From assembly GCA_030041095.1 (NCBI GenBank), contig JASHON010000093.1, positions 1-51,220 on the forward strand: DNA of 51,220 bases, in the 5' to 3' direction. The translations under genes and the position numbers were made by a program. The stretch is from Terriglobia bacterium. GTDB taxonomy: Bacteria; Acidobacteriota; Terriglobia; UBA7540. Below, piece after piece: positions 38,513 to 41,037 of the stretch. Position 1 is the first letter of the stretch, and each line of letters begins with the position of its first letter. The notes beneath the pieces were generated by a model. It searched no databases, was not told the origin of the DNA, and saw nothing but the letters and a program-made list of their open reading frames with translations.

Positions 38513-38541
38513 TTGCCACAACCAGCGACTGGCCCTATAAT
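38513..38541 (+). promoter_or_regulatory. Sigma70 promoter of the foldase-selenoprotein unit
   Basis: TTGCCA (38513-38518) and TATAAT (38536-38541) are separated by 17 bases: one mismatch at -35 and a perfect -10. Transcription would start near 38548, which excludes the longer reading frame beginning at 38513 and supports the ATG at 38579. Confidence 0.8.
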
Positions 38542-38578
38542 CGATAGAAGGAATCCCGAACATTTAACGGGGAAATTC

Positions 38579-40507
38579 ATGTATCGCTTATTTAGCGGAA
38601 GACGTCGCAAGCTGTACAAAACTTTAATGATTGTTTTCCTTGGGCTTGTCTCGCTCGGCATGGTGCTGACGCTCGCCCCACTGCCCGGCGGCACGTCCCA
38701 AATGCAGCCCGACACACTCGCAACCATCAACGGAGCACGCATTAGCATCCAGGATCTGGAAAAAACGGTCGAAGCTCAAACACAGAACAACCCTGACAAC
38801 GACCCCAAGACCATGGCCAGCCTGGCCGCGACGGCCTTTGACAACATGATTATGCACCAGGCGCTAATCGATGAGGCCGGGAAAATGGGGCTCACCGTAT
38901 CCAATCCCGAATTGGTCTCAGCGCTTCGCTCCATGCCTTTCCTTTACCAGAATGGCAAATTCGTGGGGATGCAAGAGTATCAGGAATTCGTCGAAGCGCA
39001 AGGGCTCACGGTGTCTGCCTTTGAAGCCGAGATGCGCGACACGCTCCTCCTGCAGAAGCTGCGGGATACCGTCACAGACGCCATTCAGGTGACTCCGGCG
39101 GAGGTGCATGCATATTTTGAACGGCAGAATGAAAAAGCACGGGTCAATTACGTGGTCTTCCAGCCCAGCGATTTTTACAATGCGGTCAAGATATCGCCCG
39201 CGGCGCTGAATGACTATTTCATCAGCCATCAATCCAGCTACTCCGTTTCCGAGCAGCGGCAGGTGGAATACGTCCTCGTTCCGCCGGATGCCGTTCAATC
39301 GCAGGTGAACGTGACGGCTGCAGACATCAACGAGTACTATAACCAGCACATTACGGATTTCAGCGTGCCGGATCGGGTCAAAGTAGCGCAAATCCTCTTC
39401 AAAACCACCGGAGACACTCAGGCGCAGGCTGCGCAAACATTGGCGACTGCGCAATCGGTGCTGAAAAAGATCCGCGCCGGAGCCAGTTTTGCGGACATGG
39501 CGAAGCAATATTCCCAGGACCCGACCAGCGCGCCGAAAGGTGGCGAGATCGGATGGATTCAGCGCGGGCAAACGGTGAAGGCATTTGAGGACGCCGCCTT
39601 TTCCTTGAAGCCGGGCCAGGTGAGTGGGCTCATCAAGACCATTTATGGCTATCACATCATTAACGTCGAAGACCGCCAATACGCCCACGTTCAGTCACTC
39701 AAAGAAGCCACCCCGGTCATCCAGGCACAGCTTCAGAAGACTCAGCTCGCAGCGGCGCAGCAAGCCTTGGCCGCCAAAGTGAGCCAGGAGCTCGAAGCCA
39801 ATCCGAAAAACTTCGATGGCATTGCCAAACAAAACAGCCTGACCAGCGGCGAGACACCGCTCTTTACTTACGGCCAGCCCGTCCCGGACCTCGGAAGCAA
39901 CCAGGCTTTCGAGAATCTGGCGTTTCAGCTTTCTGTCGGCACGATTGGCCAGCCGATTGAAGTGCCCAAGGGAACCGCCATCATCGAAGTCACGAAAATC
40001 ATTCCGGAGCATCTGCCCAAGCTGGCGGAAGTTGAGAGCCGGGTGGAAGAAGACTATCGGTCCCAACAGTCAAAAGTGCTGATGGGCGCAAAGGCTGCGC
40101 AATTCGCGCTGCAATGCAAGAGTGGCGATTTCAGCCAACTGGCTAAAAAGGACGGCTACACGGTCCAGCAAAGCAAGGATTTTACGACGCAGGACGAATT
40201 GGACAATCTTATTCCGGGCTCGTCGCTTTCTTCCGCATTCACACTTCACCCGGGCCAGACGAGCCATGCCATCGGGGTGGGATCCACCTATGTGGTGTTC
40301 CAGGTGGTTGCGCAAACACCGGCGAATGAATCAGACTTTGCCTCGCAAGAGGCCACACTCTCCGATCAGCTTCTCGAGCAGAAGCGAGACCTGGCGTTCG
40401 AGATTTACCAGAGCAATCTGAGAGATCACCTGATGAGCACGGGAAAGCTCAAGATCAACGAATCCGCCCTGAAGACGTTTCTCTCAGGCTATCAACAGAC
40501 TTCCTGA
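38579..40507 (+). CDS. PpiD/SurA-like periplasmic peptidyl-prolyl isomerase
   Basis: 642 residues from ATG 38579, preceded by GGGGAAA. A basic start and one membrane span (TLMIVFLGLVSLGMVLTLAPL) anchor it in the inner membrane. The N-terminal SurA-like chaperone region (LATINGARISIQDLEKTV...) follows, then a parvulin domain at about 265-360: VKVAQILFKT, ASFADMAKQYSQDPTSAPKGGEIGWIQRGQ, FSLKPGQVSGLIKTIYGYHIINVED. A second parvulin-like region near the C-terminus is degenerate. This is the PpiD layout: a foldase helping exported proteins near the translocon. The next gene, an AhpD-like selenoprotein candidate, starts 5 bases after its stop. Confidence 0.9.
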   Translation: MYRLFSGRRRKLYKTLMIVFLGLVSLGMVLTLAPLPGGTSQMQPDTLATINGARISIQDLEKTVEAQTQNNPDNDPKTMASLAATAFDNMIMHQALIDEAGKMGLTVSNPELVSALRSMPFLYQNGKFVGMQEYQEFVEAQGLTVSAFEAEMRDTLLLQKLRDTVTDAIQVTPAEVHAYFERQNEKARVNYVVFQPSDFYNAVKISPAALNDYFISHQSSYSVSEQRQVEYVLVPPDAVQSQVNVTAADINEYYNQHITDFSVPDRVKVAQILFKTTGDTQAQAAQTLATAQSVLKKIRAGASFADMAKQYSQDPTSAPKGGEIGWIQRGQTVKAFEDAAFSLKPGQVSGLIKTIYGYHIINVEDRQYAHVQSLKEATPVIQAQLQKTQLAAAQQALAAKVSQELEANPKNFDGIAKQNSLTSGETPLFTYGQPVPDLGSNQAFENLAFQLSVGTIGQPIEVPKGTAIIEVTKIIPEHLPKLAEVESRVEEDYRSQQSKVLMGAKAAQFALQCKSGDFSQLAKKDGYTVQQSKDFTTQDELDNLIPGSSLSSAFTLHPGQTSHAIGVGSTYVVFQVVAQTPANESDFASQEATLSDQLLEQKRDLAFEIYQSNLRDHLMSTGKLKINESALKTFLSGYQQTS

Positions 40508-40512
40508 ACGCG

Positions 40513-41037
40513 ATGCCTCGCTTATCCAAGATCGCTCCGAACGACGAAAGCCCCGAAACTCGTGAGACATTCTCTCATTTCCTCAAGGAGCGCGGAAACG
40601 TGCCCAATATGTTCCGCACTCTCGCGCATCGCCCTGAAATCATGAAGACGCTGGCGGACCATTTTCGTACGGTCACCAATTCGGGAACGGTTCCGAAGAA
40701 GCTGAAGGAAATGATCGCCGTGCGCGTTTCTTACATCAACGCATGCGACTACTGACTGAGCTCGCACACCGCCTTGGCAAGGCGGCTGGGAGTGACGGAA
40801 GAACAATGTGCGGCGCTCGAGCGGGGCGATTATACAGGGTTTGACGCTGGAGAACGCCTGGCTTTGCAGTTTGCCGAAAAACTCACCCTTGATTCCAACC
40901 ACATCGGCGACAGCCTGTTCCGCGAATTGCGCGAACATTTCGATGAAGGCCAGCTTGTGGAAATTGCCTGCATGGCCGGCCTGTTCAACTATTTCAACCG
41001 CTTTAATAACGCTCTCCAGATGGAACCCACGCGGTAG
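40513..41037 (+). CDS. AhpD-like (CMD family) protein, probable selenoprotein with CxxU motif
   Basis: The frame from ATG 40513 meets TGA at 40753-40755 (codon 81) and, if read through, continues without further stops to 41037, giving 174 residues. The sequence around the TGA is C78-D-Y-[TGA]-L-S-S-H85, which is exactly the AhpD active-site motif CxxCxxxH with the second Cys replaced by the stop codon. Both sides belong to one domain: MIAVRVSYINACDY before, and HTALARRLGVTEEQ and the helix LALQFAEKLT after. A hairpin that fits a bacterial SECIS follows. I read codon 81 as selenocysteine. Proteins of this type are thiol peroxidases or oxidoreductases. The gene is 5 bases downstream of the foldase and probably translationally coupled. 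Sequencing error or a nonsense mutation TGC to TGA is the alternative. Confidence 0.8.
40761..40792 (+). promoter_or_regulatory. SECIS-like hairpin downstream of the TGA codon
   Basis: CCGCCTT (40769-40775) and AAGGCGG (40779-40785) pair perfectly around the 3-base loop GGC; if the last pair opens the loop is TGGCA. The GG of the loop begins 20 bases after the TGA. Bacterial SECIS elements usually have 16-37 bases between UGA and apical loop and a G within its first two loop bases, so this fits. A weak lower stem can form between CTC (40761-40763) and GAG (40790-40792). It lies within the coding sequence, as expected in bacteria. Confidence 0.7.

Follow-up and report, generated by a model that had tools for sequence, protein, structure and literature searches.

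AhpD-like proteins in which selenocysteine (Sec) takes the second position of a CxxU motif have been reported from the Sargasso Sea (PMC1088965) and from the GOS survey (PMC2398784), where they are assigned to COG2128 or pfam02627, and a CxxU form of TIGR01926 is listed in a 2026 review (PMC13188914). AhpD-like proteins are also listed in PMC1794560, which separately lists Acidobacteria with three families, and the deep-Sep study (PMC12013277) tested an acidobacterium in which three selenoprotein genes are known. The statement in the initial annotation that AhpD-like selenoproteins had already been reported is borne out by the Sargasso Sea, GOS, and review texts. In the passages of these sources that deal with them, the reported proteins resemble the gene described here in belonging to TIGR01926, in placing Sec second, and in having a downstream hairpin with a G in the loop. 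This likeness is one of description rather than alignment, and the nearest named relatives of the gene, among the best 80 of 181, are from Acidobacteriota metagenome-assembled genomes (MAGs), the best at 70%. Among the titles listed in a literature search, none dealt with AhpD-like selenoproteins from this group of acidobacteria. The type of selenoprotein is already known, and the acidobacterial gene is new as a member of it.

The window analyzed here, a 51,220-nucleotide stretch of contig from a Terriglobia bacterium, contains an AhpD-like reading frame that opens with ATG at 40513 and closes with TAG at 41035 to 41037, with one in-frame TGA between them (Table 1). When the TGA is translated as Sec, the active-site motif reads C78-D-Y-U81-L-S-S-H85. 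The TGA was proposed to fall on the second Cys of the AhpD CxxCxxxH motif, and it does so at codon 81, where 40 of 80 related loci have a Cys codon. In an alignment of 30 rows, positions 66, 80, 81 (Sec or Cys), and 85 are invariant, and position 78 is nearly so. Gene calling with table 11 yields two pieces, 40513 to 40755 and a second from TTG at 40774 to 41037, which is the split that had been predicted for conventional calling.

Table 1. Coordinates of the AhpD-like gene, its active-site codons, and neighboring features in the window
Feature	Position	Strand	Remarks
PpiD/SurA-like PPIase	38513..40507	+	Upstream neighbor, context only
AhpD-like (TIGR01926/CMD) predicted selenoprotein gene	40513..41037	+	174 residues with UGA read as Sec
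Glu66 codon	40708..40710	+	By spacing equivalent to Glu36 of PA0269
Cys78 codon	40744..40746	+	Predicted partner of Sec81
UGA codon for predicted Sec81	40753..40755	+	Second CxxU position; Sec/Cys in 30/30 aligned rows
His85 codon	40765..40767	+	His of CxxCxxxH
SECIS-like hairpin core	40769..40785	+	7-bp stem, GGC loop, loop 20 nt past UGA

The full-length read-through product passes the cut-offs of TIGR01926 (peroxidase-related/AhpD-like; 88.1 bits versus 81.8) and CMD (63.5 bits versus 23), which supports its AhpD-like identity. The score for TIGR00777, AhpD sensu stricto, is below the cut-off (23.6 versus 191.95 bits). Two profile-related models, both named (seleno)proteins by NCBI, are also far from being reached: NF053654, YciW related (86.8 versus 310 bits), and NF041238, AhpD related (48.7 versus 175 bits). 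The predicted structure has a mean pLDDT of 94.0, and the best solved fold match is 2pfx (TM score of 0.90 by query), with 6k40, 3c1l, 2prr, and 2oyo as others; a sequence search of solved structures agrees with the fold matches. These peroxidase-related proteins share the fold over nearly the whole length but differ in sequence (25 to 30% identity), and several are titled uncharacterized. In sequence alignments, 2pfx and 2prr have Cys at the Sec81 position. Bmp8 (6ohi and 6ohj), a named debrominase, is among both the sequence and the fold matches, and a literature search found no paper on it.

A further comparison is with PA0269 of Pseudomonas aeruginosa (2o4d), an AhpD-like protein whose relay residues are given as Glu36, Cys48, Tyr50, Cys51, and His55 (PMC3141380). 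The same relay is present with the same spacing in the window protein as Glu66, Cys78, Tyr80, Sec81, and His85. The two proteins share a fold (TM score of 0.71 by query and 0.85 by target) but differ by Cys for Sec, with 30% identity in a fold alignment of only 139 columns. AhpD of Mycobacterium tuberculosis (1gu9 and 1knc) shares the catalytic helical hairpin and the CxxC logic but has that hairpin elsewhere in its chain (PMC3141380); it is a weak fold match to the window protein, with 12% identity.

The bacterial SECIS (bSECIS) model, as set out in PMC13188914, calls for a loop of 3 to 9 nt, a stem of 4 to 16 bp, a minimum free energy (MFE) of −7.5 or lower, a G within the first two loop positions, and a UGA-to-loop distance of 16 to 37 nt. 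Downstream of the TGA, stem arms CCGCCTT (40769 to 40775) and AAGGCGG (40779 to 40785) enclose a GGC loop (40776 to 40778), with the stem starting 13 nt after the TGA. The initial annotation described a perfect 7-bp stem and GGC loop fitting the bacterial rules, and all of the listed values agree (GGC loop, stem of 7, spacing of 20, and MFE of −17.8 for 40 nt) when the rules are applied as published criteria rather than through bSECISearch. Folding energy by itself is unremarkable (z of −1.75, with 14 of 200 shuffles folding equally well) and was rejected as evidence, being too weak alone, so weight is placed on covariation and on the contrast between Sec and Cys relatives. A stem of at least 7 appeared in 57 of 5,000 synonymous recodings of the gene. 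Among 3,819 codon positions in six window open reading frames (ORFs), a hairpin of the same kind was unique to the UGA site, the six scan hits being one hairpin seen from codons 78 to 83 of the AhpD-like gene.

Covariation was assessed in 18 aligned rows, the window plus 17 relatives with TGA; six Cys rows and locus L049 of genome G029, whose downstream region is deleted, were left out. Every cell of the 7-bp core (126 of 126) is paired, five of its seven pairs show both-sided changes, and the remaining two pairs are invariant. For the 8-pair structure, none of 500 shuffles matched the observed value for cells paired, both-sided pair changes, or covariation score, while for further pair types 178 of 500 shuffles did as well, and the eighth pair, at the foot of the stem, does not form in 9 of the 18 rows. 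TGA relatives without a conserved hairpin had been named as grounds for doubt; the stem is kept in all 18 aligned rows.

A search of 101 genomes (the source and 100 others) gave some match in 89, many of them paralogs, and many of the paralogs lower in the match list also have TGA. Among the 15 next-best matches from related genomes, 13 have one internal TGA, and the G033 copy and a partial G001 copy have a Cys codon. When 25 rows, window included, were read base by base, the same codon was TGA in 19 and a Cys codon in 6. A scan of species genomes found 181 relatives, and the best 80, which were retained, comprised 40 TGA and 40 Cys loci; 12 loci (L060 to L070 and L100) are common to this set and the set with G handles, so the sets overlap. 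A check proposed beforehand was to look for close relatives with TGC or TGA at the codon and a conserved hairpin; within these best 80 of 181 the stem is intact at its fixed place in 37 of 40 TGA loci versus 1 of 40 Cys loci. The TGA loci lacking it there are L103 and L111, where other hairpins fold, and L100, which has an in-frame deletion. The sole Cys copy with the stem, L064, has a TGT codon, and tRNA-Sec was not found in its draft genome.

The presence of tRNA-Sec follows the same division, being found in 36 of 40 TGA genomes versus 7 of 38 Cys genomes, with Fisher values that ignore kinship. L064 was placed among the Cys genomes in this count, and L122 and L137 were left out because their record prefix is the same as that of L121. 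The four TGA genomes of the 40 searched in which no tRNA-Sec was found (L068, L071, L074, and L095) are all MAGs by title. Homology was said to continue in frame on both sides of the TGA, and it does. Uncorrected pN/pS is 0.265 before the TGA and 0.295 after it (78 pairs from 13 genes), with third positions differing most, so selection appears much alike on the two sides.

The source assembly (4.88 Mb in 207 contigs, 95.54% complete) encodes selA (472.5 bits), selB (348.3 bits over its frame; cut-off, 242.25), selD (360.4 bits), and tRNA-Sec, the selC product (Rfam, 73.2 bits; called tRNA-SeC with anticodon tca by ARAGORN). All four genes proposed as a check on the reading therefore occur in the same genome, and the absence of selB or selC, named beforehand as an argument against Sec, is not seen. 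Three further Rfam matches, two of them above Rfam's cut-off, are tRNA-Cys and tRNA-Ser according to ARAGORN. The selD frame itself has one in-frame TGA at AAG-TGA-AAK (L140, G000:C146:3391-4329), so selD of the source genome is probably a selenoprotein as well.

Together, the machinery genes, the covarying hairpin, the Sec/Cys contrast, and selection on both sides of the TGA make Sec very likely. The comparative evidence identifies the locus as very likely a real selenoprotein gene, with Sec in all probability inserted at UGA 40753. A pseudogene or sequencing error, in which a Cys codon became TGA and the gene is dying, has some precedent in damaged copies within the family, one cut after about codon 106 (G001) and one with an in-frame deletion (G029). 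This explanation is highly improbable given that 19 of 25 rows and 40 of the best 80 of 181 loci share the TGA at this codon, that selection past the TGA resembles that before it, and that the hairpin covaries. A changed code or general readthrough, in which Trp or some other residue is inserted at TGA, found no support in this analysis and is more improbable still: every row lacking TGA has Cys at the site (6 of 6 among the 25 rows and 40 of 40 among the best 80 of 181), and the PpiD ORF upstream has TGA as its own stop codon, as do 4 of its counterparts in 11 relatives, the other 7 ending at TAA or TAG. Two separate short proteins, the second beginning at TTG 40774, are mechanically open in the table 11 pieces, but LSSHTALARRLG past the TGA is kept as protein, His85 is invariant, and a Cys codon occupies the place of the TGA in 40 of the best 80 of 181 loci, leaving this the least credible of the readings.

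If Sec is inserted as proposed, SelB would deliver Sec-tRNA to UGA 40753, aided by the hairpin just downstream. Sec81 and Cys78 could then act as the redox pair of the CxxU site, with Glu66, Tyr80, and His85 as helpers. The selenol of Sec81 would reduce a hydroperoxide or, alternatively, a partner disulfide and then form a selenenylsulfide with Cys78, after which a cell thiol system would restore the enzyme. We infer the actual insertion of Sec, the order of steps, the substrate, and the reductant from these comparisons. The protein is likely to be a selenol/thiol peroxidase or an AhpD-type reductase, and peroxide is favored by a modest degree as the main substrate.

It may not be the true substrate, because PA0269 is described as only a weak peroxidase, poorly active on H2O2 (PMC3141380). 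An enzyme that contains Sec but acts on another substrate, as the name of the debrominase Bmp8 implies for that protein, or serves as a disulfide reductase partner, is possible but rather unlikely. Consistent with such a role are the fold shared with Bmp8 and the FadB-like genes found downstream in 7 of 12 contigs (L061, L062, L066 to L069, and L100) of the window gene's family, f1; no FadB-like gene was found in the window. Against it, the proton-relay positions are retained and the nearest structures are named peroxidase related, though names are not tests.

The initial annotation also suggested that the PpiD-like neighbor ties the protein to envelope folding in a thiol/selenol redox role. 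This ORF is genuine and lies 5 nt upstream of the AhpD-like gene, with a score below the curated cut-off of the best NCBIfam peptidylprolyl isomerase model (171.4 versus 493). A PpiD gene precedes the AhpD-like gene in all 15 f1 orthologs with enough flank to tell, window included (L036 lacked flank), but in none of 68 loci outside f1 (E of 1e-5, with some flanks short) and not in f1 paralog L053. The gap between the two genes in 11 relatives is 33 to 184 nt in 10 and 8 nt in one. With the neighbor conserved only in f1 and mostly at such distances, the suggested role was not supported, and PpiD coupling was rejected as a functional clue. By eye, a hydrophobic stretch is present in the PpiD N terminus and none in the AhpD-like protein, so the two products may occupy different compartments. 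In 4 of 7 Bacillota loci (L085, L086, L094, and L098), a PPIase-like match lies about 2 kb downstream; in L085, two ORFs, one a nitroreductase, separate it from the AhpD-like gene. This link was judged a coincidence.

A second AhpD-like gene of the source genome (L006:1336-1902; G000:C35:11792-12358) also has an in-frame TGA, within CVYU..SH. This gene or its sister group was matched in 28 of 61 genomes (E of 1e-20), with one TGA in 27 of the 28 and the motif detected by script in 26 of the 28 loci. Most of these loci have a stem and a 3-nt loop at the same place, while L170 and L171 fold otherwise.

Two copies of the family appear damaged. In G001, the only same-genus genome, the codon is TGC and the hairpin is lost; the sequence departs from that of the family after about codon 106, with the remainder on another contig (L045:1-200 and L143:1-200). 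Matching inverted ends seen by eye at the junctions suggest that an insertion element interrupts this copy. With its TGC codon, lost hairpin, and foreign sequence, the AhpD-like gene seems dispensable in G001, and the copy was rejected as proof of a working Cys form because it is interrupted. The G029 copy (L049/L144/L100) retains its TGA but has lost the hairpin to an in-frame deletion, which makes this copy either a dead gene or an assembly fault.

A tree was built from the window, L031, and 79 of the 80 loci (81 rows in all, with L100 and the partial G001 copy left out). Sec and Cys must interchange three times on it, and starred branches force each of these changes. Cys rows are nested inside Sec rows under a midpoint root drawn for display only, and the Sec-to-Cys direction rests on that root. 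Of the 40 Cys loci in the set of the best 80 of 181, 25, all within L104 to L139, have Thr instead of the first Cys (TxYC), and these are all 25 rows of one all-Cys clade in the 81-row tree. It is about an even bet that Sec is older in the sampled Terriglobia and gave way to Cys on at least three occasions with SECIS decay, and that one whole clade also lost the partner Cys after one such swap. L064 would be one of the three replacements, with its hairpin still there. If the TxYC clade did lose it, the residue at the Sec position would work without that neighbor there.

Reading the UGA as Sec recovers a gene that standard annotation would break in two, and it draws attention to several groups of AhpD-like genes with UGA in Acidobacteriota. 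If the proposed history is true, the family would form a natural series running from selenol-thiol through thiol-thiol to single-thiol enzymes. A comparison of its closely related Sec and Cys forms, both those that have the partner Cys and those that lack it, could show directly what the enzyme gains from selenium.
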